Assembly: GCF_007744075.1 (NCBI RefSeq) | Contig: NZ_CP036266.1 | Span: 4,325,748 to 4,389,747 of the forward strand | Length of the DNA: 64,000 bases | Source of the DNA: Gimesia chilikensis | Lineage (GTDB): Bacteria > Planctomycetota > Planctomycetia > Planctomycetales > Planctomycetaceae | Direction: 5' to 3' | Position numbers and translations under genes: made by a program | Notes under the pieces: model-generated | What the model saw: only the letters and a program-made list of their open reading frames with translations | The model's database searches: none | Told to the model about the DNA's origin: nothing | Shown here: one piece after another, positions 8,829 through 32,100 of the stretch | Layout of the letters: each line of letters opens with the position of its first letter | How positions within the stretch are numbered: position 1 is the stretch's first letter

Positions 8829-9485
8829 ATGAACTACTCACTAGCTCCGATTTTAAACGCAGCCGGGATCGCCATCTATGTCGCCCTGGGTCTAACGGCC
8901 CTGTATGGCGTCTTCTGTGTGATTCTACTCGTCCGCCAGATCGCGCAGAAGCGATTCCTGACCCAGAACGCGGCCAATGAATTCCTCGACCAGGTCCATG
9001 AAGACATCGAACGGAAAGATTACGAAGCGGTTGTGAATCTCTGCGATTCGCCTCCTTACTGGAGCAAAGCGGTACCCCAGCTGATTCTGGTTGCCATGGC
9101 GAATATGGAACGCCCGGCCAAAAAGCTGCGACAGCTGCTCGCGGAGAAATTCGAACGTGACATTCTGGCCGACCTCGAATACCGCATGTCCTGGATCAGC
9201 ACGATCGTCAAGAGTGCCCCGATGCTCGGGCTGCTGGGAACCGTGATCGGGATGATCAACGCCTTCGACAAGATCGGCAACATGCAGGAATCGGGGGGCG
9301 ATCCGAGCCAGCTGGCGGGCGAGATCAGCTTCGCGCTGTTCACAACCGCCGCGGGTCTGTCGGTCGCGATTCCGCTGGTGATGGCCGGCGCTTTAATCCA
9401 TATCCGCATCGCTAAACTGCAAGACTCGGTGCAGGAACACACGGGTGAGTTTCTGGATATTCTGGAAGCCTCACGTAAGTCCTGA
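8829..9485 (+). CDS. MotA/TolQ/ExbB family proton channel protein
   Basis: 218 residues with three hydrophobic segments at about 13-38, 127-150 and 163-190. The segment SAPMLGLLGTVIGMINAF followed by ISFALFTTAAGLSVAIPLVM is the hallmark of the MotA/TolQ/ExbB proton channel domain. These proteins form a pentameric inner-membrane channel around ExbD/TolR dimers and turn proton motive force into mechanical work on an envelope partner. The two following genes are ExbD-type, separated by 20 and 55 bases, which supports a complete Exb-like motor here. Confidence 0.9.
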   Translation: MNYSLAPILNAAGIAIYVALGLTALYGVFCVILLVRQIAQKRFLTQNAANEFLDQVHEDIERKDYEAVVNLCDSPPYWSKAVPQLILVAMANMERPAKKLRQLLAEKFERDILADLEYRMSWISTIVKSAPMLGLLGTVIGMINAFDKIGNMQESGGDPSQLAGEISFALFTTAAGLSVAIPLVMAGALIHIRIAKLQDSVQEHTGEFLDILEASRKS

Positions 9486-9505
9486 ATCGAGAAGGTGACG
9501 GGCGC

Positions 9506-9982
9506 ATGGCACGTAAAAAATCATTATTCAATTCTGACGATAGCGGCTGGAAGAAACGTCCCGCCTCCGGTGGAGGCGACGATCTGGACATCACCCCCAT
9601 GATCGACGTGACTTTCCTGTTGCTCATCTTCTTCATGGTCACATCGACGATGCAGGCAACACAGGACTCGGATGTTCCGATCGCCCGGCATGGCGTCGGT
9701 GTGGATACCCGCAGTTCTACGATTGTACTTGTCCATAATGACGGTAACGGTCTGAATGGCCAGAGTGTTGTCGAGATCAAAGAATCGGGCGGGGCTACTG
9801 AAGTCACCCTGGATGAACTGACCGCACGCGTCCGCGAACGGGTTCAGGGAGGTGTAATGGATGTCATTATTAAAGCAGACCGGAATGTGCCGCACGGGTT
9901 CGTCCAGGAAGTCACCCGGGCCGTTACCGATGTGGATGGTGTGAAGTTCTATATTGGAATTGAAGAAAAGAAAAACAGGTAA
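9506..9982 (+). CDS. ExbD/TolR-type biopolymer transport protein
   Basis: 158 residues. After a short basic N-terminus, one transmembrane helix at about 29-52 carries DITPMIDVTFLLLIFFMVTS. It contains the conserved membrane Asp of ExbD/TolR that carries protons. The rest is the periplasmic ExbD domain. It is expected to pair with the ExbB-type protein encoded just upstream. It has the usual ExbD length (about 140 residues), unlike the next gene, which encodes a much enlarged ExbD. Confidence 0.9.
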   Translation: MARKKSLFNSDDSGWKKRPASGGGDDLDITPMIDVTFLLLIFFMVTSTMQATQDSDVPIARHGVGVDTRSSTIVLVHNDGNGLNGQSVVEIKESGGATEVTLDELTARVRERVQGGVMDVIIKADRNVPHGFVQEVTRAVTDVDGVKFYIGIEEKKNR

Positions 9983-10037
9983 TTATTTTCAACTGGTGCA
10001 TTGCCGCCTGCTGATATTTAAGACTGAATACTGAATT

Positions 10038-11303
10038 ATGCCGATCAAGTTTTACTGTAAACACTGTGGCCAGAGATTGAGCGTGGCCAGCAAGAAAGCC
10101 GGGAAGAAAGTTGCCTGCCCGGCCTGCAAGGGTCGCATTACGATCCCAGTGGAGAGTGAAGCCCGGCGAATGGAGAAAACACCAGATCCGAGTGAAACAC
10201 CTGGCAAGAAAGCATCTTCATCAACAAAAAAGAAAAAACCAGCCAAAGCCGCTCCACCCACAGAAGCGATGCTGGATGCGGACCAGAACCAGTTCCTGGA
10301 AGATCTGGACGACATGGGTCCGCTGGGCGAGAGCTGGGATGAACTGCTGGATGGGGACTGGGACGCCGCCGCATCCGCAGAAACAGAAGAGCCAGCGATC
10401 GAAGAGGAGGAATCGGCCCCTGAACCAGCGCCCCAGCCGGAGAAACAACCGACAAAAGCGAAGAGCTCTCCCCCACCGAAACCGGCGATTGAACCTGCTC
10501 CCGAACCCGAACCTGAGCCAGAGCCCTCTTCTCCTGTGACACCAGCTGCAGAAACAGAGGTTACAGCTGAAACGAGTCCTGATCCCGAGACTCCTGAAGA
10601 TGACGACCTGCTGGCAGCCTCGGAGTGGCTTGAAGAGATTGAATCGACCGAAGCTGATGAAGACCTCGCGACAGAACCGGTCTCAGAGCAATCAGCCGAA
10701 CCTGAGCAAGACGACTCGGCAGAACTTGAGGAAGTTGCGAGCACAGAAGAACCAGGACCGGAACCAGAAACAGCTCCGAAACCGGTAGTAGCATCTGCCC
10801 CCAGCCCCCGCTTTGTTGTGGAAGAGGAAGAAGACGACGAAGATGATGACGACGAAGGGTTTTCCATTCGCTCGGCCGAGTCGGAGTTTGAGGAGATGGA
10901 TCTGACGCCGATGGTCGACGTGACCTTCCTGCTGCTGATCTTCTTCATGATCACCGCTTCCTTCAGTCTGCAGAAAAGTATTCAGGTTCCTCCGCCCAAT
11001 CCGGATGAAGACGGCGTTTCACAGTCGTTGCAGACGCTGGATGATTTCCGGGAGGAATCCATTATCGTTGAGATCGACAGTAATAACGGCATTTATGTCG
11101 ATGACACCAAGCTGTCCAACCCTTCGGAGATCGTACAGGCGATCCTGGATCGACGTGATGAGGGAGGCAGACCCAAATCAGAACTCGTTCTCAGTGCACA
11201 CAAAGCGGCGCGGCATGAGACGGTCGTTGCCGTTGTGGATGCGGCGAACGAGGTTGGCATGCAGAAAATCAGACTCGCATCGTACAAAGGACCTGATGAC
11301 TGA
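10038..11303 (+). CDS. ExbD/TolR-type protein with N-terminal zinc ribbon and long acidic linker
   Basis: 421 residues, nearly three times the usual ExbD length. Residues 7-30 form a zinc-ribbon-like knuckle pair (C7-x2-C10 and C27-x2-C30 in FYCKHCGQRL and VACPACKG). Residues about 40-285 are a low-complexity Glu/Pro/Ala/Ser linker, including a run of Glu-Asp around 265-276. The ExbD helix follows at about 287-310 with LTPMVDVTFLLLIFFMITAS and the conserved Asp, then the periplasmic domain. The architecture implies a cytoplasmic zinc-binding head attached to the proton motor. Zinc-ribbon heads of this type are common in planctomycetal proteins. Role of the head is unknown. Confidence 0.85.
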   Translation: MPIKFYCKHCGQRLSVASKKAGKKVACPACKGRITIPVESEARRMEKTPDPSETPGKKASSSTKKKKPAKAAPPTEAMLDADQNQFLEDLDDMGPLGESWDELLDGDWDAAASAETEEPAIEEEESAPEPAPQPEKQPTKAKSSPPPKPAIEPAPEPEPEPEPSSPVTPAAETEVTAETSPDPETPEDDDLLAASEWLEEIESTEADEDLATEPVSEQSAEPEQDDSAELEEVASTEEPGPEPETAPKPVVASAPSPRFVVEEEEDDEDDDDEGFSIRSAESEFEEMDLTPMVDVTFLLLIFFMITASFSLQKSIQVPPPNPDEDGVSQSLQTLDDFREESIIVEIDSNNGIYVDDTKLSNPSEIVQAILDRRDEGGRPKSELVLSAHKAARHETVVAVVDAANEVGMQKIRLASYKGPDD

Positions 11304-11365
11304 CAGTAGCACTCGTGATTGTGTCTTCACCGCGTTCTACAGTCCTGAAAAGATAAGTAAGCTTC

Positions 11366-14300
11366 ATGGCCAGATTAGAAATTTCATTCTTATCCGGAAA
11401 AACTCAAAACATCGAGCTCTCCAAGCAGCAGCCGATCTCGATTGGCAGCCATTCGTCCAATGACCTGCAGGTGGACGATGTGGCTTCCATGCAGTGCCGG
11501 ATCAGCTGGAACAAAAAAGGGTACGAATTGATCGCCGCGACCAGCGATGGCGTGGAGATTAACGGCGTGATGTCGGGGCGTTCTCAACTGAATGACGGGG
11601 ACCTGATCCGAATCGGTGAAGCCGACATTCTGTTTACCGACGAAGTCGATCTGCTCGATCTGGACGCCCCCCTGCCCGATGTCACGGGTGGTGAAGCAAG
11701 CTCGATGTACGACCTTAAGCCGGTCAGTTCGGAACAACTGGATTTCAACCGTCCCCAACCGGAACCTGTGATCCCCGATAAATCAGGGCCAGAAAAGTCG
11801 TCTTCTAAAACAGGTTCGAAAAAGAAAAACGGTTCCAAATCCAGCAAGCAGAAATCGTCCAGGTCTTCAAAAGCACCCACAGCAGCTCCCGAAGAGAAAC
11901 CAGAGGATGATTTTCTGGAAGATGACGACCTGGACCTCGCCTCTGCCGCAGAGCTGCTCACGGAAGCCGAACCCGAGGCAGACAGTTCACCCGCTCCGAA
12001 ACACTTTTTATCCCGTACCAACGAGAATTCCGCGGCGACCAGCGAGGAAGAAGACTCCGCCGACAAAGAGAAAGCGGAGTCGCTCTCACTGAAAGATCGG
12101 ATCCGCCATCGATCCTCACGTAACGCTGTCCGTCCTGGCGAGCGTCAGATTGTGCGTTCGCCTATGATTCTCTCCCTGGTCGGCGGTAGCGTTCTGCTTG
12201 CACTGACGGCCCTGGTCTTCTGGTTTATCATTGGCCGCGATACGGCAAAACGGCACTATGATGCTGCCGTCCAGGAAATGGAAGCGGGCAAGTATTCACA
12301 GGCGATCCAGCTTTTCGAGTACTTCCTGGAAAATTACAACAAGAGTGACTACGCCGAGGAAGCCCGGATTTTACTCAGCAAATCTTTCGTCGAAAAAGAG
12401 ATCTCCGGTTCAACCCCCGCCTGGCAGGCCGGACTCGAAGCCACCCAGGGCTTTATCAAGAAACACCGCGATGATTCCGACTTCAAAGAGCTCTACCCGA
12501 CACTGACCGATTACGGACAGCGGATCGCACTGGGAGCGGTTGAAACCGCGAGTCGCACCAAGGAGCGTGAACTGCTGGACGTCTCTACGGAAGCCGAAAA
12601 GATTCTCACCCGCTACAGTCCACCAGATGCACCGCCGACCGAAGCACTGGCAAAAATCAAAGCTGGCTACGAAAAAGCAGAAGCGGAGATTCTGCGGAAA
12701 GAGGTCTTCGATGTAGCCGTCAAGGAGATCGAAGAAGCGATCAAACAGAAGCAGACCTTGAAGGCACTCGAACAGCGCAGACACCTGCTCGACCGCTATC
12801 CCTATTATCAGAACGATCGTAAGATGTCGACGGTACTGACCCGCATCCTGGAAGCGGAACAGGCGCTGATCCAGTCCAGCAATGAAGCGATCGCCGGTTC
12901 AACGAAAGATTATCCGGATGCCTTTCCGCAGGCGGTCACTCTGTCGCTGCACACCCGCTCAAGGTCCAATGAAGTTTCTGACGGACGCAATGTTTTCGCG
13001 CTGGCCAACGGCAGCTGTTTCGGCATTGACTCTGTGACCGGCGATCCTATCTGGAAACGCCCCATCGGCCTCGATTCGCCGTTTCCCCCCGAGACGGTCA
13101 CCGTGAAAGAGCCATCGCTGCTCCTGTATGACACGCGCCACAACGACCTGCTCTGCGTCACCCAGAAAAGTGGCGAACTGGTCTGGCGACAGCAGATGCC
13201 TTCACGGCCCACGGGCCCTCCCCTGGTCAACCAGGGCACGATCGTCGTTTCCTGCCAGGGTGGCCAATTGCTGAACCTGGATCTCCAGACGGGATCCATA
13301 GCCGCACAACTCAAGTTTGCCCAGCCCCTGGTGGGGGCTCCCGGCCTGGTTTACGGCGAACAGTCCGTTGCGGTCGCCGGTTATGAGGGGATGCTGTACC
13401 TCGTCTCGCTGCGTCCCTTTGAATGCACGAAGGTCGCAGCTCTCGGACATCGTCCCGGCACCATTCAGATTCCGATTATCCCCATGGGTAAGCTACTGAT
13501 GGTCTGCGAAAATGACCAGGCTGACGCCGCCCTGCTCCACGTACTGGACGGCGATGGTCAAAACGCAACTTTGAAAGAGCTCGAACAGTTCCGCATTAAA
13601 GGTCAGGTTCACAGTCAGCCGATCATGCGCGGGAAGCAACTGTTTTTCCCAACCGTTCCCGAACGAATCACTGCCTTCACCGTCACTGATGAGGAAGGAA
13701 AACGAAAGCTCACGGAGATCGGCTCTTACCAGCTGCAGGATCCCCTCTCCTGTCAGATCTATCTGTCCGCTGGTTCTGGTGGGCAGCTCTGGATGAGCAG
13801 TTCGGCCCTCCGTAAATTCACCCTGCTCAGTACCGGCATCAAAATGGATGACCAGAAAATCGCCGACGGACTGGGATCACAGCCGATGCAGCTGATCGGA
13901 AACAACCTGTACCTCGGACGGCGGTTGCTCTCTTCTAATTCGGTCATTTTCACGATCGCGAACCGGAATGAGATGACCAGCACCTGGAAATCGATTCTGG
14001 GAACCGACATTCTGGCCGTTTACCCTTATGGTGACGACAAGGAGCCGCAACCTGGTCTGCTCTGTATTACTTCTGATGGCGATGTATTTCGATTGCGGGC
14101 CAATGACTTCGAATCCTCTCCCGCTGGTTTCATGGAACGATCACTGACGCAGCTCAAGCTGCCGGAGAACCTGAAAGCACCGCTGCAGACAACTCGTCTG
14201 ACCGATGGTAAAATCGCCGTGAGCTGTGGCGCACCACAACCGACTTTGTGGATTCTGAACAGATTTGGTCAGCTGGAACAGACTATCGAGCTGTCAGAGC

Positions 14301-27062: not shown

Positions 27063-27154
27063 CCTGACTCAGTCATCAAACGGCCTGTCGAGCAGCGGAC
27101 ACCAACCACGCCGCAATAAATGCTCCGGCCGATCAAAATACAGTGAGAACAAAT

Positions 27155-27227
<73 letters not shown>

Positions 27228-27232
27228 TTCTT

Positions 27233-27429: not shown

Positions 27430-28917
27430 ATGAACTCCGTACAAAACTGTGTCGTTGGTTCACAGGTTCGACCATTTCAATTGAGCGTGGTTACCCCCGA
27501 CCTGCAACACGCGCAGATCCAGTCCGCAGATTACCAGGGACGCTGGCTGGCGTTGATCTTCTATCCGCATGACTTCTCCTTTGTCTGCCCCACCGAACTC
27601 ACCGGATTCAGTGCTGAGAAACCGCAGTTTGATCAACTCAACTGCGATCTCTTGGGGGTGAGCATCGACTCCCTCGAGACTCACGCGCAGTGGCTGAAAA
27701 CTCCTGCGAACGATGGAGGTGTCGAAGGACTCCGCTTTCCCCTGGCCTCTGATCCCCAGGCCACGCTATGCCAGTATTTTGGTGTCTGGCGGGAGTCCGA
27801 CGGTCTGCCGAATCGCGGATTGTTTCTGATTGACCCGGAAGGGATCCTGCGCTTTGCCGCGAGTTATGACTTGAGCGTGGGTCGGAATGTACAAGACGTC
27901 CTGCGTATCTTGGATGCTTTACAGTCCGGAGGACTCTGTCCGGCCAACTGGAAACGTGCCGATGGTGTGCTGGATACCGTGTCGCTTTTGATGCCGGGCC
28001 GGGTTCTCGGCCATTACCGCATTGAACGCGAGCTGGGCCGGGGTGCTTTCGGGCAGGTTTTTGCAGCCGAAGACTTGCGTCTCGGTCGTAAAGTTGCGCT
28101 CAAAATCATCGTGAAACAGGATGATCAGACTGAAAAACAACTCCTGCGTGAGGCACGGTCGGCAGCCGGCATCCAGCACCCCAATGTCTGCACGATTTAT
28201 TCTGTGGATACGATTGACACCATACCGACGATTGTCATGGAGTACATCGATGGTGGCTCACTTGCAGATCTGATTGGCGACGGATTCGATGACCGTCAGT
28301 TCCGCAGGATCGCGCAGCAGATTGCTTCAGGACTGGCTGCCGCTCACGAAAAGGGAATCGTACACGGTGACCTGAAGCCGGCCAATATTCTGCTGCGGGG
28401 AGGAGACGAACCGGTGATTGTCGACTTCGGGCTGGCTCGTTCTTTTCGACACCAGGAGGTCGTCACCAGAGCCGGCTCCGATACCGGACCGCAGTTTACG
28501 GTCACGACGAACGCAGATGTCGCTACGGAACCGGAAGCAGCAGAGCTGGAGTTGGATGAAACCGTGGTACTCAATTCCAATCCCGTCGATGCTGCCACCG
28601 TCTCGGCCGCGGACTCCAACGGGATCTCTGGTACCCCGGCTTATATGTCCCCCGAACAGGCCCGCGGTGATCGATTGACTGCAGCCAGCGACATTTTCTC
28701 CTTGGGATTAATTCTCGTCGAGATGCTGTGTGGTGCATCAGTAATGCGCGACATGTCGGCTCTGGAAATCATCTCTGCTTTATGGAGATCGGATTTCGTC
28801 GAATCACTGACCGAGAAGATTCCCCCTGAGTTCCGCAGCGAGCTGATTGATCTGTTGGCGATGGAGCCTGATAAACGTCCTAGTGCGAAAGAAGTGAGCA
28901 GACGGATGGGAAGCTAA
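27430..28917 (+). CDS. Peroxiredoxin fused to Ser/Thr protein kinase
   Basis: 495 residues; GGGGAGATTGA precedes the ATG. Residues 1-175 are a typical 2-Cys peroxiredoxin (AhpC/TSA): YPHDFSFVCPTEL with peroxidatic Cys53, and GGLCPANW with Cys170 in the resolving-Cys position. Residues about 196-495 are a Hanks-type kinase: ELGRGAFGQVF (P-loop), VALKII (Lys225), VHGDLKPANILL (Asp314, Asn319), VDFGLAR (332-334) and GTPAYMSPEQARGD. HRD is changed to HGD, making it a non-RD kinase. The segment from DFG to SPE is about 75 residues, far longer than usual, with a Thr/Glu-rich insert. No membrane segment is present. The architecture suggests a cytosolic kinase controlled by peroxide; that is inference. 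Confidence 0.93.
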   Translation: MNSVQNCVVGSQVRPFQLSVVTPDLQHAQIQSADYQGRWLALIFYPHDFSFVCPTELTGFSAEKPQFDQLNCDLLGVSIDSLETHAQWLKTPANDGGVEGLRFPLASDPQATLCQYFGVWRESDGLPNRGLFLIDPEGILRFAASYDLSVGRNVQDVLRILDALQSGGLCPANWKRADGVLDTVSLLMPGRVLGHYRIERELGRGAFGQVFAAEDLRLGRKVALKIIVKQDDQTEKQLLREARSAAGIQHPNVCTIYSVDTIDTIPTIVMEYIDGGSLADLIGDGFDDRQFRRIAQQIASGLAAAHEKGIVHGDLKPANILLRGGDEPVIVDFGLARSFRHQEVVTRAGSDTGPQFTVTTNADVATEPEAAELELDETVVLNSNPVDAATVSAADSNGISGTPAYMSPEQARGDRLTAASDIFSLGLILVEMLCGASVMRDMSALEIISALWRSDFVESLTEKIPPEFRSELIDLLAMEPDKRPSAKEVSRRMGS

Positions 28918-29150: not shown

Positions 29151-32100
29151 ATGAGGTCCGCGATGCGCACGAACACTCTCCGTTTTTTTCTGAGCCTGAT
29201 TATTTCGTGTTTCTTTTTGGTGCCACTTGCCTTCATTTTTGCTTTTCAGGACAAAGAAGAGTCTGCTGTGCGAATTGAGCAGGGAGCCATTGATATTGAG
29301 GTTCAATTTACTCAACAACAATATTTGAACACTTCGTTTCGCGTTGCTTATACGCTGCATAACCCGTCAGACAAACCTGACAGGTTTACGCGAACCTTTC
29401 CCGTGTCTGCTCCATTAAGCGCGCTGTATAATACCAAAAAGCCGTGGTGCCGTATCCTGGTTGATGGTAAGCCAGTGAAGTATGAAACTCAGCCGGTCTT
29501 AAAAGCAGCAACTCCTTTTACTGGATATCGGCAATTTAAAAACCAGGACGAGTGGGGGGATCGGCTTGAAGCCCTGATTCAGCAAGATGCGGAACTACTT
29601 GGTTTAGTTACCAAATATCGGCAACTCATCAGAGACCCCGAAAATCTCAGGGAAATTTCCACGACATTTGAGAGTCGTGTTAAGAATCATTTGATTTATA
29701 AAAGTGCTGATAATGTATCTGCTGCGTATCATCTTGCCAGGGGAGATGCTTCTCTTCTCGATCTAATCGAGTTGATGCCTGAGATCGATCCGAAGTTTAG
29801 AATTGACTTACCCGATACTCAAAGGAAATACGTTTCGATTCTTGCTCAAAGTTATAGTTTCGCTCCCTATGATAAGGAATGGCGTGCGCAGGCTGACCAG
29901 TGGTTAGCCTCTAAGCCAGATCTCGCAGAACTTGTACCGAAGTTACGTCAGGCCTGGGATATGCAGCGTGAGCCAGAGGAACTGCTCAATGGTCCGCTGC
30001 TAAAATACGTTCACGACCATATGGGCTTAAGCCTGCAACTGTCAAAGCAGTTTGTCGGATATATCCAGGCCGATTCTTACCATCCGCAACCCCATCTCCC
30101 GAGTGTATCGCTCATGAGAACCTTGTTTCCTGATATCGATCAAGAAATAAAAACAGAGGATATCGAAAGATCAAAAAAACTCGCTCAATGGGGATTCAAT
30201 GAGTCACTGGTGAGCCCCTACACGGGGAAATTGATAAAGTATGACACTGAGCCGCGCAGGGAAAGTAACGATTTTTATTCTGACCCAACTGTGCTGGATG
30301 CAATTGGTCGGCCACAGCAGGCGGAATTTTTATCGCGCAGATACCGTTTAAATCACAATTGTCAGCCAGTATTAATTTCCTTTGCCGCACCATTACAGGC
30401 CAAAAGTCATAGTAAAATCGTCGTTGAGTATGATTGTCACACGGATTCATTTCCCAATCCGTGGAGCTCTATCCAGCCCAATGACATAACTGAACTATCG
30501 GCTGTATTTCCGGCGCTTCAAACTGTACCTGTGACAGTTACATGTCCTGCAACCGTCCAGCCAATTATTGCTCCTGCTCCCCAATCAGTTACAAAACTAG
30601 AAAATGGTGGCTGTCGCTTTGAGACTCGGCTCACCAATAAGGCAACGATGCTGCATTTTATTGCGGTCAATTTAAGTCCTAATGGTAACGGCTATTCTCT
30701 TGGCAATAACCCTGTTGATTTGGCTGACATTGAGACCGTTCTTGAGAAAACCATAAATATAACGGTCAGACCACTGTTAATGACTAAGTTGTTTTCCAGG
30801 CTAAGAGAAAAACAGGCCTATCAATTAGTAGTTAAGATCCAGCAGGAATACCCTGACTTCCAGTCCAAACTTTCGCGATTACTGAATAGCAAACCTGGTC
30901 GTGATGCAGAAACCGATGAATGGATTGAGGCTAAGGTGAAGTCGCCTAAAATCATATCCGACAGTGACTTCGAAAGATTTAGAATAATCTACAACTACAG
31001 GGGGATTGAGGCAAGATTAGAGTTGATCAAGCGACTCGATCAACTTGATGTCGCGAAGCTTGATGTGCAGGAGCAAATGGGCCGCCTGTTTATGCTGTGT
31101 ACTGCTGGAGTTGACTCAAAGCAAAACTTCGCCACGTTGTTGAAGCTCGCTGAATCGAACCCAAAACGAGTTAATGAATCGCTGAGGTTCATTCGAGAAT
31201 TGCAAATGGATAAGTCAGCCGCATTACCGTTTGTGCTCAACCAATTTGATCCCGATCTTCCTAAAAAAATGCGTGCTAAGAAACTCACTGCTCCAGCAGA
31301 AGTCTGGCAACGACGAAACCAGGCTCTCCGCACACTTGGTTCCTTTCGATCCCCCCAGACTGCAACACGGATTATTGCATTGATTCAGTCGACCGATGAT
31401 TCATTATCGATCCAGGAAGCCATGGAAGCTTTATCTCAGATGACTCTCCCTAAGCATTTTGAGGAACTCGCTCGCATTTCTGATCATATTGCAGAATCTT
31501 CAGCAAGTGATTTGATTCGGTATCTCGAGTTATTAGTTCGGTCAGATGATCAAAAAAAGGCACCACCGGTATTAAATCGCCTGCGCAAACAATATCCTGA
31601 ACTGGCAGCACGTATTACCCCGTTTCTTGCTCATTATCAGCCGTCTGAGGAACTCGCTCGTGCTCAAACTGTCTATCAGAATACCAAAGCTCAGGAAGAG
31701 GATCTGCAAGCAGCCATTAATGTTTTATTCAAGTATGCTGAACCGACTGATATAGTAAAACTTGCTTATAGAAAAGGATTACCCCAACGGATGAACCAAC
31801 GGCTCGTCAGGGCCATTGCGGAAAAAGGGGGGGATGAATCCGCCTATCCATTTGTTGAAGCTTATTATCTGGAGTTTATCCAAGGACAGAAAGCAGACAA
31901 TGACTTGACCTGTGTTTCAGCTTTCGAAGAGATAGGAGATCAACGCGCCATTCCCTACTTGAGAGAGATTGTCAAGAAATCAGAACGAAAAGAAGATGCA
32001 GCACACGCCATTGGTAATATTATCTTTGACAAGCGAATCAAAAAGAAAATTGATTACCATAAGTTGGAAAAGTTGGATGAGAATATTCGCACACTCTTTC

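Follow-up and report, generated by a model that had tools for sequence, protein, structure and literature searches.

Can a bacterial Ser/Thr kinase carry its own peroxide sensor in the same polypeptide? The transfer of a signal from a peroxiredoxin (Prx) to a kinase is hard to study because the two partners meet transiently. The question is raised by a gene of Gimesia chilikensis lying in a stretch of 64,000 nucleotides (hereafter the window; G000:C1:4325748-4389747), part of a genome assembled as one contig of 8.29 Mb. Its product is a natural one-chain version with a near-fixed joint between Prx and kinase, which reduces the question to a single experiment on one purified protein.

The fusion is considered here a real, conserved and, in the open-access literature, apparently undescribed variant, in which a Hanks-type kinase carries a peroxidase domain within its own chain. 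Judged from its sequence features, this built-in Prx domain probably makes the kinase a peroxide sensor. If true, bacteria would possess a peroxide-to-phosphorylation route apart from transcription-factor sensors. OxyR is a peroxide sensor of the transcription-factor kind.

Anatomy of the fusion gene and protein

A sequence-only reading of the window had described a 2-Cys Prx and a complete Hanks-type kinase in one frame, and both domains were recovered far above the Pfam cut-offs. The AhpC-TSA match covers residues 9-142 with 108 bits (cut-off 26), and Pkinase scores 165.1 bits over the whole protein (cut-off 31.7), with 196-348 as its best stretch. The residues placed earlier, namely Cys53, Cys170, Lys225, Asp314 of the HGD motif, the DFG from 332 and the SPE from 407, were all located correctly (Table 1).

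Upstream of the fusion gene, a tRNA-Lys gene is found at 27154-27228. The next plus-strand frame of at least 100 aa begins at 29151; it extends to 32492 and encodes a protein of 1113 aa with Pfam HEAT-repeat matches, all of them sub-threshold.

The individual domains were modelled well by AlphaFold. As the pTM reaches just 0.56 and 0.57, the mutual placement of Prx and kinase is not fixed by the model, and linker residues 169-181 have a pLDDT below 50.

Table 1. Features of the Prx-kinase fusion gene (positions within the window)
Feature	Position	Strand	Remark
Prx-kinase fusion gene	27430..28917	+	495 aa + stop, ATG start, single open frame; homologues found
Typical 2-Cys peroxiredoxin domain, residues 8-178	27451..27963	+	
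Peroxidatic Cys53 codon (TGC; motif FVCPTE)	27586..27588	+	TGA in homologues L075, L080
Resolving Cys170 codon (LCPANW)	27937..27939	+	Cys in 45/45 fusions
Linker from resolving Cys to first kinase strand, residues 171-195	27940..28014	+	From alignment and AlphaFold model
Hanks-type Ser/Thr kinase domain, residues 196-494	28015..28911	+	From Pfam and alignment
Non-RD catalytic motif HGD, residues 312-314	28363..28371	+	48/48 fusion kinases
Kinase Cys254 (HPNVC), candidate relay acceptor	28189..28191	+	Kept in 43/48 fusions
Long activation-segment insert, residues 337-397	28438..28620	+	Length limited to closest relatives; mostly low model confidence

Conservation of the active sites and of the joint

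Residue conservation was counted in an alignment of 45 fusions, including all 42 matches of the class sample, aligned over both domains. In the Prx part, Pro46 is kept in 44 of the 45, and Ser/Thr50, Cys or Sec at position 53, Arg129 and Cys170 in every one; position 53 is Cys in 43 fusions and an in-frame TGA in two. The N-terminal domain has the thioredoxin-type Prx fold, the PxxxT/SxxC site, the catalytic Arg and the resolving Cys in the C-terminal tail that characterize typical 2-Cys Prx (Prx1/AhpC). The same fold, Cp motif, Arg and tail Cys are found in NCBIfam PrxU (NF040737) and AhpC (TIGR03137) and in human Prx1. In contrast to these, the tail of the fusion runs on into a kinase, and the window protein stays under the NCBIfam Prx cut-offs (114 vs 270-272 bits).

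The kinase part is conserved to a similar degree. Lys225, Glu241, Asp314, Asn319, Asp332, Pro408-Glu409 and Asp421 are identical in 45 of 45 fusions, and with them the invariant K, E, D, N, DFG Asp and PE of a Hanks-type kinase. It is not an RD kinase, Gly preceding the catalytic Asp throughout. The HGD in place of HRD, pointed out before on the window protein, occurs in all 48 fusion kinases, whereas the 30 further kinases examined from the window genome, the best 30 of 43 stretches listed, all lack it. HGD also occurs in 30 of 34 other bacterial kinases, a set chosen by that very motif; it is a mark of the fusion family, though not unique to it. By its non-RD HGD loop and its N-terminal enzyme domain, the fusion differs from Hanks-type kinases such as PknA and PknB of M. 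tuberculosis. In well-known bacterial kinases of this type, the sensors are mostly C-terminal.

The joint between the two domains is almost constant in length. The Cp-Cr spacing is 117 in 45/45 fusions, and the spacing from Cys170 to the VAIK Lys, compared among Prx-kinase fusions alone, is 55 in 41 and 56 in four. Both values (117 and 55) recur in 4/4 further fusions from named records, including a Zixiibacteriota MAG. The stretch 167-195 counts 29 residues in 41 of the 45 and 30 in the other four. The mean sequence entropy of the linker (1.64) is higher than that of the Prx core (1.35) and the kinase N-lobe (1.39), whereas its length hardly varies.

Compared with three relatives, dN/dS of the window gene is 0.09-0.19 outside the activation-segment insert and 0.16-0.42 within it. 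The activation segment of about 75 residues with a Thr/Glu-rich insert, highlighted in the sequence-only reading, is present in the window protein but is no family trait. Outside the window copy, a DFG-to-SPE distance of 75 occurs only in five near relatives (L043-L047), and the other 39 of the 45 fusions range from 15 to 65. The length being lineage-specific, a functional importance of the long insert was rejected.

Some copies deviate from this pattern. The catalytic loop reads HGDLKT rather than HGDLKP in one same-genus copy (L044, G001). Another copy (L043 in G009, 9001-10491, minus strand), a 95%-identical relative, is interrupted in the kinase by a TAG at codon 230, through decay or sequencing error. 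In L084 (G432; 9381-11870, plus strand), an 829-aa frame holds the fusion and a second kinase domain with an HRD-type loop.

Distribution of the fusion

Of 397 genomes in a sample of the class, 42 have the AhpC/TSA plus Pkinase architecture (E <= 1e-50), and these span seven family codes (f1, f2, f3, f5, f8, f13 and f23). The phylum sample gave matches in 12 of 392 genomes (E <= 1e-55), three of them outside the class. In the family of the window, 16 of 170 genomes have the fusion, one of which (G775) as a partial 323-aa frame, compared to 17 of 45 in f2; a search for further Sec members in f3 found it in 3 of 95 genomes, two having TGA. The class, phylum and family samples overlap. Within the genus, 7 of 17 genomes are carriers, four of them single-contig assemblies (G000, G001, G008 and G013). 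No plasmid match was obtained at E 1e-60.

Among the named-record matches listed are MAGs labelled Pirellulaceae (L104) and Planctomycetota or Planctomycetales (L108, L109). A MAG labelled Candidatus Zixiibacteriota (L107) contains a fusion with 174 of 466 positions identical to the window protein. Spread beyond Planctomycetota, at least one MAG, is a lower bound. The label comes from this single MAG (locus GC 0.445) and may reflect a binning error.

The sequence-only reading had allowed for an assembly error, with homologues always encoded by two genes. Across the class and phylum samples this was not so, and the covalent fusion is real and conserved. Chance and an assembly or annotation artefact were ruled out by the recurrence in the class, the four single-contig assemblies of the genus and the dN/dS of 0.09-0.19. 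A two-gene ancestry was likewise discarded: the 42 class matches are single frames, the exceptions being G348 and G326 (a single TGA apiece) and G009 (a single TAG).

Phylogenetic origin

The fusion Prx domains form one clade, comprising 49 of 83 tree rows with a support of 100/99. Of the 34 non-fusion rows, those of Bacillota type come nearest, and the non-fused Prx of the host branches elsewhere. The kinase part formed one clade in a quick tree (SH-aLRT 99). In a careful tree it was not one clade, two changes being needed; of 200 bootstrap trees, 52% showed one clade, and the bootstrap had yet to settle. Constraining the kinase clade raised lnL by 19.64, with a p-AU of 0.822. A single origin of the kinase part is favoured by these trees, not proven. 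Duplicates (L103, L105, L106, L110, L216), partial Prx (L130, L172, L176) and kinases spanning fewer than 220 model positions, including L109, were left out of the trees. Structure alignments comprised 41 of the 45 fusions (A2) and 38 rows (A3).

Probable selenium at the proposed sensing site

In two fusions from different genera of f3 (L075 in G348, L080 in G326), the peroxidatic codon is TGA in an aligned frame that is otherwise open. Both genomes contain tRNA-Sec (74.6 and 72.9 bits, cut-off 47), called by ARAGORN as tRNA-SeC with anticodon TCA, and SelB (358.2 and 368.2 bits, cut-off 242.25). The two fusions are probably selenoproteins because the peroxidatic TGA coincides with tRNA-Sec and SelB in both genomes. 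This machinery is not confined to the TGA members: among the 14 genomes searched, both cut-offs were also passed by three with Cys fusions (G231, G076 and G053), and the window genome fell below both. The two TGA genomes are assembled in many pieces, about 600 contigs in one (86% complete) and about 220 in the other (79%). A base-calling error is conceivable in both but would need the same codon to be struck twice. A hairpin fitting the published bacterial SECIS model (PMC13188914) lies 17 nt past the TGA in both genes. The scan does not discriminate, since a fitting hairpin is present somewhere in the allowed range in 34 of 43 Cys homologues, the energy limit of the model not being applied. 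The change of Cys53 to TGA in two genera with Sec machinery is what selection for reactivity at this site would predict.

Should the kinase indeed sense peroxide, the sensor in the Sec members would be based on selenium. The selenoprotein with a kinase-like domain already in the literature is presumably SelO; in SelO-type proteins, the kinase-like domain, a divergent one, is part of the selenoprotein itself. In the portion of its description available (PMC3281104), it resembles the fusions as a kinase-fold protein able to carry Sec, whereas in the fusions Sec would lie outside the kinase, which is canonical, in the peroxidase domain joined to it. Sec-peroxiredoxins are similar in having UGA/Sec at the peroxidatic position, as in L075 and L080. 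PrxU is a name for the PF00578 TxxU type of Sec-peroxiredoxin. Sec-containing Prx are known, PF00578 TxxU being listed as Prx in PMC13188914; in the passages of that review covered here, a kinase-fused one is not mentioned, and "protein kinase" occurs 0 times in its main text.

Proposed mechanism and alternatives

The preferred reading, to which we assign a probability of about 0.6, is a peroxide-sensing Ser/Thr kinase in which a Cys53-Cys170' disulfide acts as the switch by way of the short linker. Typical 2-Cys Prx resolve the sulfenate with a Cys of the partner subunit; this resolving Cys lies in a C-terminal tail that unfolds upon disulfide formation. In the fusion, the tail with Cys170 enters the first strand of the kinase N-lobe about 26 residues later. 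The N-terminal Prx1/AhpC-type domain, whose active site is intact, would react with H2O2 at Cys53, and the sulfenate would be resolved by Cys170 of the partner subunit. By drawing on the tail, the disulfide would move the two kinase N-lobes to new positions across a Prx dimer or ring, thereby altering kinase output, and a thioredoxin-type reduction would presumably reset the switch. We lean weakly, at about 55:45, towards oxidation activating the kinase.

The near-constant linker length fits a geometric switch better than a loose tether, and the non-RD loop agrees with control of the kinase through domain position and not through phosphorylation of its activation loop. Taken together, the near-fixed joint, the invariant redox residues and the non-RD kinase suggest a kinase whose position depends on the disulfide state. 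Broader, and given slightly less than an even chance, is the view of a wholly intramolecular Prx-to-kinase family in which the disulfide cycle of the tail would mechanically gate a non-RD kinase, some members having selenium as the sensing atom and being selenoprotein protein kinases.

The conservation of both catalytic centres would also be predicted if the kinase phosphorylated the Prx in cis, acting on its peroxidase activity or assembly. Alternatively, the Prx ring may merely cluster kinases for trans-phosphorylation, again without peroxide sensing by the kinase, and Prx1-type proteins do form dimers and rings. Such a reversed or structural flow is nevertheless unlikely. Pure scaffolding leaves the invariant Cys170 and Arg129, and the change of Cys53 to TGA alone, unexplained, and cis-phosphorylation has no obvious need for a near-fixed linker from the resolving Cys.

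A shade less probable is a thiol relay, in which the oxidised Prx would hand its oxidation to a kinase Cys, likeliest Cys254 between alphaC and beta4, and alter the ATP pocket. Cys is found in at least 30% of the 45 fusions only at alignment columns 20, 53, 72, 114, 170 and 254, Cys254 being the sole one in the kinase domain. Among 48 fusion kinases, 43 have it; among own-genome kinases the figure is 3 of 30, and among the other kinases 4 of 34. Counting against the relay, Cys254 is missing from five fusions (2 Gly, 2 Ala, 1 Ser), and by homology its position is presumably buried. Prx-dependent oxidation of a kinase Cys has been reported for yeast PKA: the 2-Cys Prx Tsa1 controls the redox state and activity of PKA, the relay site being the activation-loop Cys243 of Tpk1 (PMC7392609). 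The fusion would likewise have a 2-Cys Prx controlling a Ser/Thr kinase upon H2O2, but Tsa1 and PKA are two proteins, and the fusion is one chain. A PKA-like relay is unlikely because no conserved Cys exists in the activation segment among the 45 aligned fusions. Hence, of what the sequence-only reading had suggested, a built-in peroxide-sensing kinase persists as the best reading, both active sites being kept in 45 fusions, and a relay to an activation-segment Cys does not.

An accidental fusion of two independently working enzymes without coupling would agree with the patchy distribution and with the indirect nature of the case for coupling, but it is very improbable given that the fusion is conserved in several families and under a second phylum label, with a near-constant junction and a single Prx clade.

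Previous descriptions

No paper on a Prx-kinase fusion was found by exact phrase in the open-access library searched, to which this absence is limited. In the main text of a 2024 survey of planctomycete kinases, the words peroxiredoxin, AhpC and redoxin have 0 occurrences (PMC11032199). NCBIfam has no fusion model among the 25 families listed.

Gene neighbourhood

Among 574 clustered neighbour frames, no conserved operon partner was detected, and rough ORF choice in GC-rich loci could hide a link; nor was a neighbour seen in this set that would name a pathway. Neighbour families common to several loci lie at scattered distances and on either strand, except in close f2 relatives; L069, L071, L073, L077 and L079, for instance, have a common frame 2.1-3.0 kb downstream.

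In three close relatives (L043, L044 and L045), the setting is that of the window, the fusion gene lying after tRNA-Lys and an aldehyde dehydrogenase gene. Two further copies from the same genus (L046 in G008, L047 in G013) have neither within flanks of about 9 kb, which indicates that the fusion gene has been moved or regained there.

A different arrangement occurs in the Myxococcota MAG Prado145 (L124). There, a separate Prx gene (853-1482) lies on the same strand upstream of two kinase frames (2104 onward), each with two kinase-domain matches, and this Prx falls outside the fusion clade.
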